A stretch of DNA of 48,003 nt from Alphaproteobacteria bacterium (GTDB lineage: Bacteria; Pseudomonadota; Alphaproteobacteria; UBA828). Shown here in pieces: positions 6,347-39,237 of this stretch (the stretch's first letter is position 1; the number at the start of each line of letters is the position of its first letter). The notes beneath the pieces were generated by a model, which did no database searches, was not told the DNA's origin, and saw only the letters and a program-made list of their open reading frames with translations. The translations under genes and the position numbers were made by a program. The stretch spans positions 1 to 48,003 of the forward strand of contig WTGU01000053.1 of the NCBI GenBank assembly GCA_011523425.1. Direction: 5' to 3'.

Positions 6347-6766
6347 GTGAGGGCGCTCACTCTACCGGCCGCCGCTGCGGCGCTCGCTGCGGCGCTCTGC
6401 GCCGGGCCAAGTGCCGGTGCAGCCGAGCGCCCGCTCGCCCTGCTCCAGGCGCTGGACAAGGTGGTGGCGCGCACCTCCACGCTGGCAGCGCCGCTCGACG
6501 AGCCGGTCCGCTTCGGGACGCTCAGGATCGTCGTCCGCGTCTGCCACGAGGCGCCGCCCGAGGAGCCGCCGGAAAACGCCGCCTTCCTGGAGATCGACGA
6601 GGTCGACCACGAGGGGCGCGCGGTGCGCCTCTATACCGGCTGGATGTTCTCGTCGACGCCGGGGCTCGCGGCGCTGGAGCATCCGGTCTACGACATCGGC
6701 GTGCTCGCCTGCACCGACTCCGAGCCGGCGGCAGAGAGCGAGTCGTCCGAGAAGCCCGCCGGGTAG
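6347..6766 (+). CDS. DUF2155 secreted protein
   Basis: A 139-residue protein with a signal peptide (alanine-rich core, residues 5-24, cleavage near GAA). The DUF2155 core comprises [54 protein letters not shown] and LACTD; the two cysteines (in VRVC and LAC) may form a disulfide. The function of the family is unknown. The GTG start follows the mlaD stop with no gap, so translation is probably coupled. Its last 79 bases overlap the 3' end of aat on the opposite strand, and the overlapping acidic tail is outside the conserved domain. Confidence 0.85.
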
Positions 6767-7359
6767 AAGCTCGCCGGCCGCTCGAGCGCCTCGGCGAGCC
6801 GGGCGTGGTAGCGCGCGCGCGGTATCTCGACGGCGCCGAAGCGACTCAGGTGGGGGGTGACGAACTGGGTGTCGAGCAGCGTGAAGGCGCCGGCCCTGAG
6901 GCGGGCGACCAGATGCACCAGCGCGACCTTGCTCGCGTCCCGCTCGATGCTGAACATGCTCTCGCCGAAGAACGCCGCGCCCAGCGAGACGCCGTAGAGC
7001 CCGCCCACGAGCGCGTTGTCGCGCCAGGCCTCCACGCTGTGGGCGTGCCCCTGCCGGTGCAGCGCGCAATAGGCCTCGAAGATCGCGCCGTTGATCCAGG
7101 ATTCGGGGCGGCGCCCGGTGCGGCGCGCGCAGCCGCGCACGACGCGGGGGAAGTCGCGGTTCACGGTGATGCGGAAGTGCCCGGCGCGCACGGTGCGCGC
7201 GAGCCGGCGGGGCACGTGGAAGCGGTCGAGCGGAATGACGCCCCGGCTTTCCGGATCGACCCAGAAGACGTCCGGTTCCGCCTTGCCCTCCGCCATGGGG
7301 AAGAGCCCGCAGCCATAGGCCCTGAGGATCAGCGCCGGCGTGAGCTCGACGGTCGTCAC
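6688..7359 (-). CDS. aat: Leucyl/phenylalanyl-tRNA-protein transferase
   Basis: Transfers Leu or Phe from tRNA to the N-terminal Arg/Lys of proteins, marking them for ClpS/ClpAP (N-degron pathway). The 223-residue protein has the family signatures [63 protein letters not shown] and [16 protein letters not shown]. It starts at GTG 7359 without a clear ribosome site; a hairpin-bounded repeat ends 17 bases upstream. It is the last gene of the aroQ-accB-accC-aat run and overlaps the DUF2155 gene tail to tail. Confidence 0.95.
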
Positions 7360-7375
7360 GGCGTCCGGACTGGGC

Positions 7376-7569
7376 TAGAGCGTATCCGTCTTCGACGGAT
7401 ACGCGACAGGTCGCGACTGCGGCCCGCCGCTCATGCGGCGCGCCCGCATCGTTCGCTCCGCGCGCGTTGACGCGCGACGGCGCCGGCAGGCGCGCGGAAT
7501 CGCGGGACGGCCGGCTGCCGTGAGCGACAAGGAGGCTGGAGCGTTTCCGTGTAAAGCGGACACGCTCTA
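7376..7569. repeat. Dispersed hairpin-bounded repeat, copy A
   Basis: A 194-bp element between accC and aat, with about 93% identity over roughly 165 bp to the inverted copy B at 37509-37701. Its ends are imperfect inverted repeats (TAGAGCGTATCCG versus TAGAGCGTGTCCG) beginning with TA. The left end folds as an 11-bp stem (GCGTATCCGTC, 7380-7390, with 7394-7404). The right end folds as GAGCGTTTCCG (7539-7549) with 7557-7567, with one mismatch. The outermost TAG on the right is the stop codon of accC. No transposase is encoded. The structure recalls palindrome-bounded intergenic elements of rhizobia (RIME-like) or a MITE with TA target duplication. Confidence 0.82.
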
Positions 7570-8925
7570 TCCACCGGGCTCTGCGCCGGTTTCCGCCACG
7601 AAGCGCTCGAACCAGTGGATGTCGTAGTCGCTCGCGGCGAACGCCGGGCTTGCGAGCAGGCGCAGGTGCAGCGGTATCGTGGTCGAGACGCCCTGGATGA
7701 CGTATTCCTCCAGCGCCCGCCGGAGCCGCATCACGCAGGCCTCGCGGCTCGCGGCCTGGGCCACGACCTTGCTGATCAGGCTGTCGTAGTAGGGCGGGAT
7801 GCGGTAGCCGTCATAGAGCGCGGAATCGACGCGCACCCCGAGGCCGCCCGGCGTGTGGTAGCCGCTGACGGTGCCGGGCGACGGGCGGAAGGTCTCCGGA
7901 TCCTCGGCCGTGATGCGGCACTCGATGGCGTGGCCGGTGAAGCGCACGTCCTCCTGGCCGAAGCCGAGCGGTTGGCCGGCGGCGACGCGAAGCTGCTCCT
8001 GCACTAGGTCGATGCCGGTGACCATCTCGGTGACCGGATGCTCCACCTGGATGCGCGTGTTCATCTCCATGAAGTAGAAGGCGCCGTCCTCGTAGAGGAA
8101 CTCCAGCGTGCCGACCCCGCGGTAGCAGAGCTCGCGCATCGCGGCGCCGACCCGGCTGCCGATCTCCTCGCGCATGTGTGCGTCCAGCGCGGGCGACGGG
8201 GCCTCCTCCAGCACCTTCTGGTGGCGGCGTTGAAGGGAGCAGTCGCGCTCGCCGAGATGGACCGCGTTGCCGTGCTGGTCGGCGAGCACCTGGACCTCGA
8301 TATGGCGGGGTGCCGCGACCAGCTTCTCCAGATAGAGCGCATCGCTGGCGAAGGCCGCCTCGGCCTCGGCGCGCGCCATCGCCACCGCGCCGGCGAGCTC
8401 GTCCGGCCGGTCCACCCGCTGCATGCCGCGCCCGCCGCCGCCCGCCACGGCCTTGATCAGGACCGGATAGCCGATCTCGTCCGCGGCCTCGGCGAAGGAG
8501 CCGGCATCCTCCAGCGCGCCCGCCGAGCCCGGCACCACCGGCAGGCCGAGCGCGGCTGCGGTCTGCTTGGCGCGCACCTTGTCGCCCATGAGCGTGATGT
8601 GCGACGGGCTCGGGCCGATGAAGATGAAGCCGTGCTCCTCGACGATCGTGGCGAAGTCGGCGCTCTCGGAGAGGAAGCCGTAGCCCGGGTGGATGGCGTT
8701 TGCATTGGTGATCTCGCCGGCGGCGATGATCGCCGGGATGTTGAGATAGCTCTCCCTCGGCGCCGGCGGGCCGATGCAGACCGATTCGTCCGCGAGCCGG
8801 GCGTGCATCGCCTCCGCGTCCGCCGTTGAGTGCACGGCGACGGTCTTGATGCCGAACTCCCGGCAGGCGCGGATGATTCGAACCGCGATCTCCCCCCGGT
8901 TGGCGATCAGCACCTTGTCGAACAT
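7567..8925 (-). CDS. accC: Acetyl-CoA carboxylase, biotin carboxylase subunit
   Basis: Carboxylates biotin on AccB using ATP and bicarbonate, the first step of fatty-acid synthesis. The 452-residue protein has MFDKVLIANRGEIAVRIIRA, the ATP-grasp glycine loop AVAGGGGRGMQ, the metal/ATP residues around GVGTLEFLYEDG and FMEMNTRIQVEHPVTE, and GHAIECRI in the C-terminal domain. I prefer ATG 8925 over ATG 8934 because it gives the canonical N-terminus behind GAGTGAGGCG and leaves 5 bases after the accB stop. The TAG stop codon is the first three bases of repeat copy A, so the repeat follows without a base in between. Confidence 0.97.
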   Translation of the reverse strand: MFDKVLIANRGEIAVRIIRACREFGIKTVAVHSTADAEAMHARLADESVCIGPPAPRESYLNIPAIIAAGEITNANAIHPGYGFLSESADFATIVEEHGFIFIGPSPSHITLMGDKVRAKQTAAALGLPVVPGSAGALEDAGSFAEAADEIGYPVLIKAVAGGGGRGMQRVDRPDELAGAVAMARAEAEAAFASDALYLEKLVAAPRHIEVQVLADQHGNAVHLGERDCSLQRRHQKVLEEAPSPALDAHMREEIGSRVGAAMRELCYRGVGTLEFLYEDGAFYFMEMNTRIQVEHPVTEMVTGIDLVQEQLRVAAGQPLGFGQEDVRFTGHAIECRITAEDPETFRPSPGTVSGYHTPGGLGVRVDSALYDGYRIPPYYDSLISKVVAQAASREACVMRLRRALEEYVIQGVSTTIPLHLRLLASPAFAASDYDIHWFERFVAETGAEPGG

Positions 8926-8930
8926 TCGCC

Positions 8931-9410
8931 TCACTCGAGGATCAGCAGGACCTCGCCATACTCAACCCGGGCGCCGTTCTCGGCAAGAATCCGCGTCACG
9001 CGCCCGGCGCGCGGGGCGCGAACCGGGTTCATCGTCTTCATCGCCTCGACGATGAAGAGCGTCTCGCCCTCGGCGATGTCGTCGCCGACCGTGACGAAGG
9101 GGGGACCGCCCGGCTCCGGCGCCACGTAGACCACGCCGACGAGGGGGGAGATCACCGCGCCCGGATGCGACGCGTCGTCCGCGCCGGCGGCGGCCGGCGG
9201 CTCCGCCTCGCCCGCCGCCGGCGCCGAGTGCGGGGCGGCCTGGGCCGCGGGCATCGCCGCTGCGGCCGGCGCGGGCTTGCGGGCGATGCGGATGCGCCCC
9301 TCGCCCTCGCCGATCTCGATCTCGGTCAGCCCCGCCTCGTCGAGCACCGCCGCGAGAGCGCGGATCAGCTCGATGTCGGGCCGGGGGGCGGCGGGGGGGT
9401 TCTCTGCCAT
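8931..9410 (-). CDS. accB: Biotin carboxyl carrier protein of acetyl-CoA carboxylase
   Basis: A 159-residue carrier for the carboxybiotin intermediate. An N-terminal helical segment (IELIRALAAVLDEAGLTEIE) and a Pro/Ala-rich linker (about 46-82) precede the biotinyl domain, where the modified lysine is Lys125 in VEAMKTMNPV. ATG 9410 is chosen over longer in-frame starts because the longer versions run through aroQ in another frame. It begins 4 bases after the aroQ stop and ends 5 bases before the accC start, so the three genes form one operon. Confidence 0.96.
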   Translation of the reverse strand: MAENPPAAPRPDIELIRALAAVLDEAGLTEIEIGEGEGRIRIARKPAPAAAAMPAAQAAPHSAPAAGEAEPPAAAGADDASHPGAVISPLVGVVYVAPEPGGPPFVTVGDDIAEGETLFIVEAMKTMNPVRAPRAGRVTRILAENGARVEYGEVLLILE

Positions 9411-28667: not shown

Positions 28668-28678
28668 GGGCGGGCATG

Positions 28679-28951
28679 TTAACCTGCACTTCTCACCAGG
28701 GTCATGGTCTGCGCGGCGCTGTCCGGCCGACAGGGCAGGAGAGGCGCGCAGCGCGATGCGGGGACATCGGGCAAGCGCCTCGACGCACACTGTCGGCCGG
28801 AGAGCGCCGCCCTTCGGGTCGCGCCCAGGCGCCCGCCCGCGGCGTCGCGGGCCTCAACCGTATTCCCCGATACGCTTTTCGGCCCGCTCCTGGCGGATCG
28901 AACGCCTGGTGCGCGACGCAGACCGTGACCATGGTGAGAAGTGCAGGTTAG
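28679..28951. mobile_element. Non-autonomous inverted-repeat element, 273 bp
   Basis: Perfect 16-bp terminal inverted repeats, CCTGCACTTCTCACCA at 28683-28698 and its complement at 28932-28947, are flanked by TTAA (left) and TTAG (right). The symmetry continues inward with few mismatches (GGTCATGGTCTGCG against GGTCACGGTCTGCG), giving about 38 bp of near-inverted repeat per end. No open frame inside resembles a transposase. The CC-starting ends and TTAA-like flank recall IS1380-type ends, but this is from memory and tentative. It lies between phaB and a methyltransferase gene and fills most of a 308-base gap. Confidence 0.75.
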
Positions 28952-28975
28952 CAGCCCGCGCGCGCCGGCACCGGC

Positions 28976-29698
28976 TCAGTACATGTGGGTGCCGCCGTTC
29001 ATGGTGATGGTGGAGCCGGTGGTCCATGCCGCCTTGTCGTCGACGAGGAAGAGCACCGCATGCGCCACCTCGTCCTCGTAGCCCATGCGGCGGACCGGCG
29101 ACTTGTCGATGATCTTCTTCACGATCTTCTCGGGCATGTTGCGCATCATGTAGGTGTCGACGTAGCCGGGCGCCACGGTGTTGACCGTGATCCCGTGCCT
29201 CGCACCCTCCTGCGCCAGCGCCTTGGTGAAGCCGTGCATGCCCGCCTTGGCGGCGACGTAGTTGACCTGGTTGAGCTGGCCGGCCTGGCCGTTCATCGAG
29301 CCGATCTGGATGATCCGGCCCCAGCCGCGTTCGATCATGCCGGGATAGACCGCCTTCGACATGTAGTAGACGGAATCGAGATTGACCCGCACCACCCGCT
29401 GCCACTGGTCGTCGGTCATGTTCTCGAATTTGTTGTCGGAGACCGTGCCTGCGTTGTTGACGAGGATCTCGACCGGGCCGTGCTCGGCCTCGATCGCCGC
29501 GACGCCCGCGCGGCAGGCCTCGCCGTCGCTCACGTCCCACTTGCGCGCCGGAATGCCGGACTCCGCGCTGAACGCGGCGGCGCAGGCCTCGTCGGCATGG
29601 TAGTTGACCACCACCGGGTGGCCGGCCTGCTTCAGGGCACGCGCGATCGCCGCGCCGATGCCGCGCGTGCCGCCGGTAATCAGCGCAAGCCGTTCCAT
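28976..29698 (-). CDS. phaB: Acetoacetyl-CoA reductase, copy 1
   Basis: Reduces acetoacetyl-CoA to (R)-3-hydroxybutyryl-CoA with NADPH for polyhydroxybutyrate. The 240-residue SDR has TGGTRGIGAA, LVNNAGTVSDNKF, the catalytic IGSMNGQAGQLNQVNYVAAKAG (Ser, Tyr, Lys; written here in one run of family-typical residues), VAPGYVDT and a terminal TMNGGTHMY. ATG 29698 follows GGGGAGGCGG. It is a tandem paralogue of the next gene, 35 bases apart, and last in the pha operon. Confidence 0.93.
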   Translation of the reverse strand: MERLALITGGTRGIGAAIARALKQAGHPVVVNYHADEACAAAFSAESGIPARKWDVSDGEACRAGVAAIEAEHGPVEILVNNAGTVSDNKFENMTDDQWQRVVRVNLDSVYYMSKAVYPGMIERGWGRIIQIGSMNGQAGQLNQVNYVAAKAGMHGFTKALAQEGARHGITVNTVAPGYVDTYMMRNMPEKIVKKIIDKSPVRRMGYEDEVAHAVLFLVDDKAAWTTGSTITMNGGTHMY

Positions 29699-29733: not shown

Positions 29734-30456
29734 TCAGTACATGTGGTGGCCGCCGTTGACCGAGATCGTGGAGCCGGTGATGAAGTCGGCGTCGTCGGCG
29801 ATCAGGAAGAGCACCGCGCGGGCGATGTCCTCGGCCCGGCCGAGCCGGCCCACGGGGATCGAGGCGACGATCTTCTCCAGCACCGCCTCCGGCACCGCGC
29901 GCACCATCTCGGTATCGACGTAGCCGGGCGCCACGGCATTCACGGTGATGTTGTGGCGCGCGCCTTCCTGCGCCAGCGCCTTGGTGAAGCCGTGGATCCC
30001 CGACTTCGCCGCGGCATAGTTGACCTGGCCATACTGGCCGGCCTGGCCGTTGATCGAGCCGATGTTCACGACCCGCCCGAACTTGCGCGCGCGCATGCCG
30101 GGGAAGGTCGCGTGGCAGAGGTTGAAGCAGGAGCCGAGGTTGGTGTCGAGCACCGCCTGCCAGTTGTCCGGCGTCATCTTCTGCAGCGTGCCGTCGCGGG
30201 TGATCCCGGCGTTGTTCACCAGGATGTCGATGGGGCCGATCTCCTGCTCGATGCGCCCGACGCCCGCTTCGCAGGCGGCGAAGTCGCCCACGTCCCACTT
30301 GTGAACGGCGATGCCGGTGGCGCTGCGGAAGCGCTCGGCCGCCTCGTCGTTCGCGTTGTAGTTCGCGGCTACCTGGTAGCCGTCGTTCTTCAGCGCCAGC
30401 GAAATGGCGCCGCCGATACCGCGTGTTCCGCCCGTGACCAGTGCCACCCGAGTCAT
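29734..30456 (-). CDS. phaB: Acetoacetyl-CoA reductase, copy 2
   Basis: The same length (240 residues) and reaction as its neighbour. Signatures are TGGTRGIGGA, LVNNAGITRDGTLQKM, IGSINGQAGQYGQVNY followed by AAAKSGIHGF, and SVNGGHHMY. It is closer to the canonical PhaB than copy 1, since it retains ITRD in the NNAG region. It lies 88 bases downstream of phaC in the same direction. Two tandem copies suggest recent duplication or division between cofactors or chain lengths. Confidence 0.94.
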   Translation of the reverse strand: MTRVALVTGGTRGIGGAISLALKNDGYQVAANYNANDEAAERFRSATGIAVHKWDVGDFAACEAGVGRIEQEIGPIDILVNNAGITRDGTLQKMTPDNWQAVLDTNLGSCFNLCHATFPGMRARKFGRVVNIGSINGQAGQYGQVNYAAAKSGIHGFTKALAQEGARHNITVNAVAPGYVDTEMVRAVPEAVLEKIVASIPVGRLGRAEDIARAVLFLIADDADFITGSTISVNGGHHMY

Positions 30457-36462: not shown

Positions 36463-36600
36463 CAGGGGTTTCCCGGCGGACGCATCGGGCGGGCGGCGAT
36501 AGCCGGAAAGAGCGAAGTCGGATCGCTCAGGCGCAACTCTTTATTATCTCACAATAAATCGGCGGTGCTCGCCGATTCAGCCGCCGCGCGTGGCCAAGCT

Positions 36601-37461
36601 TCAGCCCGCCGGCTTCACGCCTGTCCCGATCCGCACGTGGACGGCGAGCGGGACCTCGTCGCCGTCGCGCAGGCGCTCGAAGCCCGCCGCCACCGCCGCC
36701 TCCAGGGCACGGCGCTCGTCCTCCGTGGCGCCGTCGAGCGCGCGGCCGAAGGTCATCTCGAATTGGGCCTGCCAGAAGGGTGCTGCGGCCGGTACCCGGG
36801 GGGCGAAGCGCACCTCGCTCTCCTCCACCTGCGCGAGCCTGCCGCCGGCCAGCGCGGCGCCGAGCGCGCCGGGCGCCCCGAGCGAGAAGGGGCGCGCGAG
36901 GTCGATCGCCTCCACCCCATCGAGGGGGCCGAACACCGCTTCCGCGGCGGCGACGAAGACGGTGAACATGGTCGTCTCGTCGCGCGGACCCCAGACGAGA
37001 TAGGCCGCCCGCCCGCCGGGTTTCAGCACGCGCGCGGCCTCGGCGCAGGCGCGGTCCGGCGCCGGGCAGAACATCAGGCCGAAGCGGCAGATCACCCGGT
37101 CGAACGCGGCGTCCGCATCGGCGAGCGACAGCATGTCGGCGGTCCGGAAAGTGATGTTGCCGAGGCCCCGGGCGGCGGCGCGCCGGCGGGCGCCCAGCAT
37201 CATCTCCGGGCAGAGATCGGTGGCGAAGACGCGGCCCTCCGCCCCCACCAGCTCGGCGACCGTGAGCGCCGGCTCGCCGGCGCCGGTGGCGATGTCGCAG
37301 ACCCGCTGGCCCGGTCCGACCGCCGCCGCCTCGATGAGCGGCGCGTTCATGCGCGCCGCCTGCTCGGCGAGCTCGTCCGACCGCCGGTCCCAGTGGCGGC
37401 CGCGCGCGGCCCAGTCCGCCCGCACGAGCTCGATCTCCTGCCTGATGCTGTCCGCGTCCAT
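36601..37461 (-). CDS. Class I SAM-dependent methyltransferase, UbiE-like
   Basis: A 286-residue methyltransferase: VCDIATGAGEPALTVAEL (motif I), VFATDLCPEMML, ADMLSLADADAAFDRVICR and AARVLKPGGRAAYLVWGP. It resembles ubiquinone/menaquinone-type and small-molecule methyltransferases; the substrate is unknown. ATG 37461 (MDADSIRQEIEL) is chosen because the longer frame to 37626 reads through repeat copy B. It lies downstream of ubiE-ubiB, separated by the repeat. Confidence 0.85.
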   Translation of the reverse strand: MDADSIRQEIELVRADWAARGRHWDRRSDELAEQAARMNAPLIEAAAVGPGQRVCDIATGAGEPALTVAELVGAEGRVFATDLCPEMMLGARRRAAARGLGNITFRTADMLSLADADAAFDRVICRFGLMFCPAPDRACAEAARVLKPGGRAAYLVWGPRDETTMFTVFVAAAEAVFGPLDGVEAIDLARPFSLGAPGALGAALAGGRLAQVEESEVRFAPRVPAAAPFWQAQFEMTFGRALDGATEDERRALEAAVAAGFERLRDGDEVPLAVHVRIGTGVKPAG

Positions 37462-37508
37462 GGCCGCGCACTCTCCCACCCGCGGCGCGCCTGTCAAGGC
37501 CGTCAGGT

Positions 37509-37701
37509 TAGAGCGCTTCCCTCTCACGCGGATCCAGTCCACTTCTTTGTCGCTCACGGCAGCCGGCCGTCGCGCGATTCCGCGCGCCTGCCGGCGCCGT
37601 CGCGCGTCCACGCGCGCGGAGCGCACGATGCGGGCGCGCCGCAGGGGCGGCGGGCCGCGGTCGCAGCCTGTCGCGTATCCGTCAAAGACGGATACGCTCT
37701 A
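37509..37701. repeat. Dispersed hairpin-bounded repeat, copy B (inverted relative to copy A)
   Basis: A 193-bp copy of the element at 7376-7569, in opposite orientation. Its right end carries the same 11-bp stem (GCGTATCCGTC at 37673-37683 with 37687-37697, loop AAA), and its ends read TAGAGCG...CGCTCTA with TA outermost. The outer TAG on the right is the stop codon of ubiB. The left end (GAGCGCTTCCCTC) has diverged from copy A. It fills most of the gap between ubiB and the methyltransferase gene. Confidence 0.82.
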
Positions 37702-39237
37702 GAGAAACTGTACGGCCAGGAGGGCCGCGAGCAGGCCGGCGATGAGCGCCAGCAGCACCGGCAGCGCGCCGCCGCCCCGCCGGCGGCCGGCCATCGCCTC
37801 AAGGGTAGCGGGCGAAAGGGCGACTCCCTCCTCCAGCCCGTCCAGCACCCGCTCGGCGCGGGCGGCCAGCCGCGGCAGGCGGCCTGCGGCCTCGAAGAGC
37901 TCGGTCGCCGCATCCCTGAGCCGCGCCTCCACGCCGAGGTTCTCCCGCGCCCAGCGCTCGATCAGCGGCTGGGTGAAGACCCACATGTTCTGGTCGGGCG
38001 TGAGGCGGCGGGTCAGCCCCTCAGCCATGAGCATGGTCTTCTGCAGCAGCAGCAATTGCGGCTGGGTCTCCATCTCGAAGGCCTCGGTGATCTGGAAGAG
38101 CTGGCCGAGAAGCTGGGCGATCGATATCTCGTTGAGCGGGCGGCCCAGGATCGGCTCGCCGATGGAGCGGAGCGCTTGAACGAACGCTGCTTTCGAGGTC
38201 CGCCGCGGCACGTAGCCGGCTTCGAGGTGGACCTCGGCCACGCGCTCGTAGTCGCCGATCAGGAAGCCCAGCAGCATCTCGGCGAGATAGCGCCGGGTCT
38301 GGGTGTCGAGCCGGCCCATGATCCCGAAGTCGACCGCGACGACGTTGCCGTCCGCATTCACCAGCAGGTTGCCGGGATGCAGGTCGGCGTGGAAGAAGCC
38401 GTCGCGGAAGGCCTGGTTGAAGAAGGCCTCGGCCGCCTTGCCCAGCACCTCGTGGGGATCGTGGCCTGCGGCCACCAGGGCGTCGCGCTCGTCGATGGGG
38501 ATGCCCTCGACCCGCTCCAGCGTGAGCACGCGGCGGCTGGTGCGCCGCCAGTCGACCGCCGGCACCAGGAAGCCCGGGTCCTCGGCGAAGTTCTGCCGCA
38601 GCTCCGAGGCCGCAGCGGCCTCGAAGCGGAGATCCATCTCGATCATCACGCTCTGGGCAAAGGTGCGGATCACCTCCACCGGGCGCAGCCTGCGCCACGA
38701 GGGAAGCGTCCGCTCGGCAAGCTCCGCCAGCCAGTAGAAGAGCTCGAGATCGCGTTCCAGGGCGCGCTCCACGCCGGGCCGGAGGATCTTGACCGCGACT
38801 GGCTCGCCCGTTGCGGTGACGGCGAAGTGCACCTGGGCGATGGAGGCAGCGGCGACCGGCTCGTCGGTAAACTCCCGGAACAGGCTCTCCAGCGGCACGC
38901 CGAACTCGGATTCGACGATGGCCCGCGCGGCCTTGGCCTCGAACGGCGGCAGGCGGTCCTGCAGGGCCGACAGCGCGGCCGCGGTCTCCTCGCCCACCAG
39001 GTCCGGCCGGGTGGACAGCGCCTGGCCGAACTTGATGAAGCTCGGCCCCAGCACCTGCAGCGCGCCGGCGAGCCGCTGCCCCGGCGAGCCCAGCCTCCGC
39101 TTGCGCGGCGCCATGCCGGCGAGAAAGGTGACGGGCGGCACGAGGCCGTAGTCCCGCAGCAGGAAGAGCGCGTCCCAGCGCCCCAGAGTCCAGGCGATGC
39201 GGAGCAGCCGCCCGATGTTTCTGAGCGCCCGGCGCAT
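37699..39237 (-). CDS. ubiB: Ubiquinone biosynthesis kinase-like protein UbiB
   Basis: A membrane-bound ADCK/ABC1-family atypical kinase needed for coenzyme Q synthesis. The 512 residues contain the KxGQ motif (FIKFGQALSTRPDL), the Ala-rich nucleotide loop (PVAAASIAQVH), VAVKILRPGVE, and the catalytic/metal segment FHADLHPGNLLVN with VDFGIMG. It ends in a hydrophobic tail (LPVLLALIAGLLAALLAVQF) that anchors it. The TAG stop codon coincides with the end of repeat copy B, so the tail may have been trimmed or fixed by that element. It is 10 bases downstream of ubiE. Confidence 0.95.
   Translation of the reverse strand: MRRALRNIGRLLRIAWTLGRWDALFLLRDYGLVPPVTFLAGMAPRKRRLGSPGQRLAGALQVLGPSFIKFGQALSTRPDLVGEETAAALSALQDRLPPFEAKAARAIVESEFGVPLESLFREFTDEPVAAASIAQVHFAVTATGEPVAVKILRPGVERALERDLELFYWLAELAERTLPSWRRLRPVEVIRTFAQSVMIEMDLRFEAAAASELRQNFAEDPGFLVPAVDWRRTSRRVLTLERVEGIPIDERDALVAAGHDPHEVLGKAAEAFFNQAFRDGFFHADLHPGNLLVNADGNVVAVDFGIMGRLDTQTRRYLAEMLLGFLIGDYERVAEVHLEAGYVPRRTSKAAFVQALRSIGEPILGRPLNEISIAQLLGQLFQITEAFEMETQPQLLLLQKTMLMAEGLTRRLTPDQNMWVFTQPLIERWARENLGVEARLRDAATELFEAAGRLPRLAARAERVLDGLEEGVALSPATLEAMAGRRRGGGALPVLLALIAGLLAALLAVQFL

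Follow-up and report, generated by a model that had tools for sequence, protein, structure and literature searches.

A dispersed family of short inverted repeats on stop codons in an alphaproteobacterial genome, probably miniature elements of the IS630 type

The IS630 family of insertion sequences is marked by a duplicated TA target and short inverted-repeat ends, and a preference for TA in CTAG has been published, going by the title of Tenzen and Ohtsubo (1991) as cited in PMC2170065. ISY100, a member of the family, uses TA for nearly all of its insertions and duplicates it (PMC2170065). Bacterial MITEs such as the Correia elements, MITEPsy1 and the Coxiella QMITEs are small, non-coding and dispersed, with inverted-repeat ends, TA termini and stem-loops. 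MITEPsy1, which is related to ISPsy2 and duplicates 4 nt, inserts after CTAG or YTAA (PMC3189936), and in Coxiella a QMITE2 is located at the 3' end of the enhC gene (PMC5896051). REP/BIME palindromes are extragenic structured repeats found near the 3' ends of genes, and intrinsic terminators are stable hairpins right after genes.

The repeat described here, found in a probably sponge-associated alphaproteobacterium, shares with the IS630 family the duplicated TA, the short inverted-repeat ends and the leaning towards CTAG, but it carries no transposase and its ends differ from those of every IS630 element found. All the listed features of bacterial MITEs are present; however, it does not duplicate 4 nt as MITEPsy1 does, and it silently restores stop codons, whereas QMITE2 lengthened EnhC. 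In contrast to REP/BIME palindromes, which sit some distance downstream of genes, it has TA-flanked inverted-repeat ends and a junction exactly at the stop. Unlike intrinsic terminators it forms a dispersed family, shows no preferred orientation and, in the copy scanned, has no T-tract. We consider it very probable that the repeat is a MITE of the IS630 (Tc1/mariner) type with a YTAR/CTAG-like target and with TAR stops as its main safe niche. A stop-codon niche for IS630 is undescribed in the papers searched, and a search largely outside the subscription literature returned no paper on a MITE family concentrated in stop codons.

The window, that is the whole stretch of 48,003 nt that was analysed, holds two copies (Table 1). 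Copy B (37509-37702) is an inverted copy of copy A (7375-7569), and the identity of about 93% given in the first-pass annotation was recovered as 94% complementarity over 159 ungapped nt, or 88% over 194 nt when the full lengths are compared with gaps. The same annotation had copy B ending on the ubiB stop codon, and it does so exactly. The sites before insertion were deduced as CTC TA/A CCT for copy B, a TAA stop, and GGA TA/G CCC for copy A.

Table 1. Positions of the two copies, their parts and the adjoining genes in the window, with the loci of a second repeat family found elsewhere in the genome
Feature	Position	Strand	Remarks
Leucyl/phenylalanyl-tRNA-protein transferase gene (aat)	6688..7359	-	Start 18 nt from copy A
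Copy A, end-1 flanking TA	7376..7377		
Copy A, body	7378..7567	+	190 bp; end 1 at 7378, end 2 at 7567
Copy A, end-2 flanking TA	7568..7569		With G at 7567 (minus strand) gives the accC-like stop TAG (7569-7567)
Biotin carboxylase, accC-like	7567..8934	-	Stop codon in common with copy A
Gene next downstream of copy B	36601..37461	-	Methyltransferase-like by sequence in the window and in relatives
Copy B, end-2 flanking TA	37509..37510		Other half of the target duplication
Copy B, body	37511..37699	-	189 bp; read end 1 to end 2, GAGCG...CGCTC
Copy B, end-2 terminal palindrome	37511..37542	-	Degraded here; most copies, copy A among them, have it intact
Copy B, end-1 hairpin	37671..37699	-	GAGCGTATCCGTCTTTGACGGATACGC region
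Copy B, end-1 flanking TA	37700..37701		With the element's first G (37699) gives the ubiB stop TAG (37701-37699, minus strand)
ubiB-like gene, ABC1 kinase	37699..39237	-	PF03109, 5e-79; stop codon in common with copy B
Second family	L357-L386		Own contigs C11, C23, C24, C29, C33, C40, C59, C70, C71, C89, C97, C156, C159

End 1, which carries the GCGTATCCGTC-TTTG-GACGGATACGC hairpin, adjoins ubiB in copy B, and end 2 adjoins the accC-like gene in copy A. The contacts are thus those of the first-pass annotation, but its distinction between a hairpin-bearing end and an opposite end does not hold across the family: as a rule end 2 folds too, into a hairpin formed by a palindrome of about 33 bp. 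The folding energy of copy B lies beyond that of 200 shuffles (z = -5.1). No curated RNA family in Rfam matched the window at gathering thresholds, and a scan of 37400-37800 found no terminator-like or promoter-like site in copy B and no T-run. Downstream of copy B, the longer open reading frame at 36527-37471 had no match in Pfam.

The two loci could be thought to descend from one larger segmental duplication, with the stop context inherited along with the repeat, and the 94% identity fits such an origin. Its probability is nevertheless negligible, since similarity stops at the edges of the element and the flanking genes are unrelated, being ubiB and a methyltransferase-like gene at copy B but biotin carboxylase and leucyl-phenylalanyl-tRNA transferase at copy A. 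Moreover, about 40 dispersed copies were recovered by blast from the same genome, a fragmented metagenome assembly of 3.62 Mb in 159 contigs. Termini of the form TAGAGCGNNTCCG occur 77 times in this genome, compared with 12 for a reversed control pattern.

From the loci fetched, 52 copies of the family were read, each with at least one readable end. They measure 145-230 bp, carry terminal inverted repeats (GAGCG...CGCTC) with TA next to them, and form stable hairpins. A canonical copy starts as TA-GAGCGTATCCGTC-TTTG-GACGGATACGC-GACAGG..., continues through at least two internal hairpins and finishes as ...GAGCGACAAAGAGGC followed by a terminal palindrome ending in CGGACACGCTC-TA. Body lengths cluster at 145, 162, 172-176, 190 and 229 bp, as internal hairpins are either there in full or missing altogether. 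Aligned copies give the inverted-repeat ends GAGCGTATCCG and CGGACACGCTC, and the family is short (MITEs are taken here to measure less than about 500 bp), multi-copy and non-coding, as a frame of transposase size cannot fit in a body of 145-230 bp.

Among 21 copies of the 145-bp class, the 49 consensus pairs are in the paired state in 98.3% of cases, and two-sided compensatory changes affect 9 pairs, compared with 2.0 in shuffles. The outer palindrome differs from copy to copy while its arms stay matched, which a role of the structure in RNA or in DNA would explain, as would palindrome correction during replication. At end 2 of two copies (L025 and L004), the arms of the terminal palindrome are wholly changed and yet match each other (CAGGAACATA.../...TATGTTCCTG and TAAGGCGCATCTG.../...CAGATGCGCCTTA, respectively), which suggests palindrome correction or selection for the hairpin.

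Each of the other seven species in the genus has the family, and further out there were weak matches only. In these congeners 11 of the 19 parsed elements lie on a stop, and the copies are more decayed. The named records in which the core occurs are metagenome bins assigned either to Rhodospirillales or to unclassified Alphaproteobacteria, and a reading of the bin names points to sponges as their origin.

TA flanks both sides of 21 of the 52 copies, and most of the others lack one side or one end. For these 21 copies, target duplications and pre-insertion sites were deduced from the flanks in a fragmented metagenome assembly and from relatives, and the resulting consensus has C at -1 in 16 sites and a purine at +1 in 17. 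YTAR accounts for 16 of the sites and CTAG for six, in keeping with the TA insertion and CTAG-like preference of IS630. A 4-bp duplication of CTAG or YTAR was considered and rejected: the outermost G and C do not vary at either end, unlike the bases flanking them, so the duplication is TA.

The TA flanks also bear on an origin as REP/BIME-like or IS200/IS605-type (PATE) repeats, moved by a single-strand Y1/HUH transposase with no true target duplication. A hairpin at each end and the partial degradation of the ends in many copies would suit such elements, but the inverted-repeat ends, which TA flanks on each side in 21 copies, do not, nor do the full-length IS630 elements of congeners that have the same GAGC start and TA flanks, and this origin is accordingly very unlikely. 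These IS630 insertion sequences are about 1,055 bp long with TA-flanked GAGC ends, for example GAGCACGATCCGATC and GAGCGCGATCCTATC, and the transposase of one of them (L237) matches NF033545 at 6e-61. One end of the L237 element is a TAG stop, and three other IS630 elements (L238, L301 and L304) lie off any called stop. At a further locus (L236, on contig C73 of G002; about 1340-2456 in the locus), a copy of the repeat and an IS630 element meet on one common TA and the far IS630 end is a TAG stop; judged from this arrangement, the locus is apparently a case of successive insertions at one stop codon.

The best match of an insertion sequence end to the repeat, 10 of the first 12 bases, is that of L301 in a related genus, and no insertion sequence carrying exactly these repeat ends was found in the searched genomes. 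The domain DDE_3 (IS630) had no match in this genome's assembly, which may have dropped repeated elements at contig breaks. As the repeat has no DDE transposase of the IS630 type, it can be at most a derivative of that family. An IS5/IS427 origin (DUF4096, PF13340) was also considered and rejected, as none of four matches in congeners had convincing TA-flanked GAGC ends.

Placement on stop codons was counted with gene calls from a home-made codon-usage model that had been trained anew on the ubiB and accC-like genes. At least one terminus lies on the in-frame stop codon of an adjacent gene in 44 of the 52 copies (85%), in line with the suggestion of the first-pass annotation that insertion is targeted to TA at stops or that such insertions are strongly selected. 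The shared stop is TAG in nearly all cases, made of the flanking TA and the element's first G. Either end can take this position: 27 stop junctions are at end 1 and 24 at end 2, with seven copies using both, and the balance (p = 0.78) bears out the earlier argument against a simple directional terminator. A directional intrinsic terminator was rejected on this balance and on the lack of a T-run around copy B.

As background, TA outside coding interiors was counted over 448 kb of this genome. Of 742 such non-coding TA sites, 133 (18%) belong to stops, as do 61 of 167 YTAR sites (37%) and 49 of 93 CTAG sites (53%), and the share among copies far exceeds each of these (p = 2e-25, 1e-12 and 1e-6, respectively). 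When all YTAR and CTAG sites are considered, 27% and 40% of them, respectively, are stops; the genome is 72% GC and such sites are rare. TAR stops end 143 of 398 genes (36%). The excess over available sites depends on the arrangement of the genes. Between convergent genes the ratio of stop to non-stop positions is 22:6 against 14:5 for YTAR sites (p = 0.48), which is no excess, but in tandem intergenic regions it is 21:1 against 43:66 (p = 5e-7). The availability of YTAR and CTAG sites is therefore insufficient for the tandem regions and an extra force is needed there, which we read as probable selection against insertions ahead of downstream genes. Regions between convergent genes hold 28 of 51 placed copies, compared with 52 of 391 gene pairs in the background.

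Gene ends in relatives were used to establish whether the stop or the element came first. The last residue of UbiB is the same in each of the seven congeners, whether or not a repeat is present, and the stop is TAG or TAA, so the element, which the first-pass annotation had raised as a possible cause of shortening, did not shorten the protein. The locus lacks the repeat in G001, G003, G004, G006 and G007, has a copy 4 nt past the stop in G002 and has a copy exactly on the stop, in the opposite orientation, in G005. Similarly, the accC-like protein is equally long in four of four aligned relatives, all with TAG; no relative ended either gene on a stop without TA. Nine of 12 further genes have the same last residue in every relative and one in three of four, while L039L is 3-7 residues shorter here than in relatives and L038R is variable. 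Among the ends of convergent pairs, four of 10 are identical in all relatives. Overall, 24 gene ends were compared, 15 of which are the same in every aligned relative, and L039L, L038R, L011L, L015L and L060L differ by a few residues.

By our count, the stop is TAR in 47 of 74 cases in relatives without the element, compared with 36% of genes here. Together with the shared last residues, this indicates that the TAA or TAG stops came first and that the element was inserted later. The earlier claim that either end can supply the TAG thus stands in that both ends begin with G, but the TA was already part of an existing TAA or TAG. Nearly all relatives have TGA at L018R and L019L, so a change from TGA to TAR or a small deletion preceded insertion at these two ends.

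The converse order, in which insertion at TA in coding sequence near gene ends truncates proteins and so creates the stops, might be read from the element's first G, which is always part of the TAG, and from the short L039L. It is highly improbable, as UbiB, the accC-like protein and 13 further ends stop at the same residue in every aligned relative and the DNA gyrase-like and SDR-like proteins have their usual C-termini. For most genes, element-made stop codons are ruled out by the gene ends in relatives.

Independent insertions in opposite orientation have occurred at the same stop in ubiB and L019L of G005 and in L042L of G001, and also in L042L of G002 as read from the printed sequence. 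In addition, the stops of both convergent genes fall in one common TA at L015 (six of seven relatives) and at L028 (G001), and the copies here occupy this shared TA, giving TAG for each gene. The convergent ends in G005 that match L008 have a different family instead (TAGAGCACTTTCCGACC...).

These observations can also be explained by positive selection for a mobile 3'-end module whose hairpins, whichever way round they lie, would terminate transcription in both directions or stabilise mRNA. The stable hairpins with their two-sided compensated pairs, the share of copies between convergent genes, the tandem-region excess over YTAR sites and the fact that the same gene ends were hit independently more than once all fit this explanation. 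However, matched arms would also result from palindrome correction by template switching, and by a rough estimate the repeated hits at the same TAR stops among seven relatives are about what chance would give. Furthermore, copy B has no terminator-like or promoter-like site, there is no orientation bias, and a terminator need not overlap the stop codon itself. Copy A splits the accC-like gene from aat, genes that are about 10 nt apart in relatives, and a strong terminator there would be harmful. A positively selected terminator role is not needed to explain the pattern, and we regard it as improbable.

Under the preferred reading of a MITE of IS630 type, a transposase of that type would move the element in trans into YTAR-like TA sites. 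Insertion at the TA of an existing TAA or TAG stop would duplicate the TA and, with a G at the start of both ends, whichever end faces the gene would rebuild TAG, so that the protein is unchanged and the insertion silent. Purifying selection would act as a sieve, purging insertions in genes and in promoter or regulatory DNA before downstream genes, and silent re-creation of TAG would leave TAR stops as the main safe niche. The hairpins would serve transposition or act only passively on mRNA 3' ends.

As TA lies in two of the three stop codons and the element's first base completes the stop, a mobile element of this kind can spread through a compact genome without damage. For annotation, these elements fix what immediately follows many genes in the sequence and may influence mRNA 3' ends. 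Alternatively, machinery of the IS630 type could actively seek stops, for example if it were coupled to the termination of translation or to DNA features of gene ends, or the MITEs could be domesticated gene-end modules, mobile and indifferent to orientation. Although we consider this unlikely, it would make stop insertion a targeted strategy and not the residue of a TA/YTAR preference and purifying selection.

The stop niche extends beyond this family. In the same genome, minimal 33-bp palindromes occur on TAG stops in three cases, and two of these palindromes have a TAG stop at either side. A second family, whose ends are TAGAGCA...TCCGAYC (TAGAGCANNNTCCGAYC) and whose interior is unrelated, has eight of 13 termini as TAG stops (Table 1), and many of its members lie at contig ends. 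Short TAGAGC...GCTCTA palindromes are likewise placed on stops or close to them in bacteria of two other alphaproteobacterial families, with five of seven on a TAG in G081 (L337-L343) and five of 13 in G101 (L344-L356). For several other G101 palindromes the distance to a TAG is always 62 nt, and we take this TAG to mark the probable far end of a longer element. As such, the niche may be general for IS630-type elements in GC-rich bacteria.

Two further repeats were observed in the window. A 277-bp element at 28677-28953, with 43-nt inverted ends (TTAACCTGCACTTCTCACCAGGGTC...) and apparently TA-flanked, is intergenic beside a paralogous gene pair; it probably represents another MITE or IS family, and similar CTGCACTTCTCAC motifs occur in relatives (L209, L336) and near L074. 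The stretches 28976-29275 and 29734-30033 form a direct repeat of 73% identity over 300 nt in tandem paralogous genes on the minus strand.
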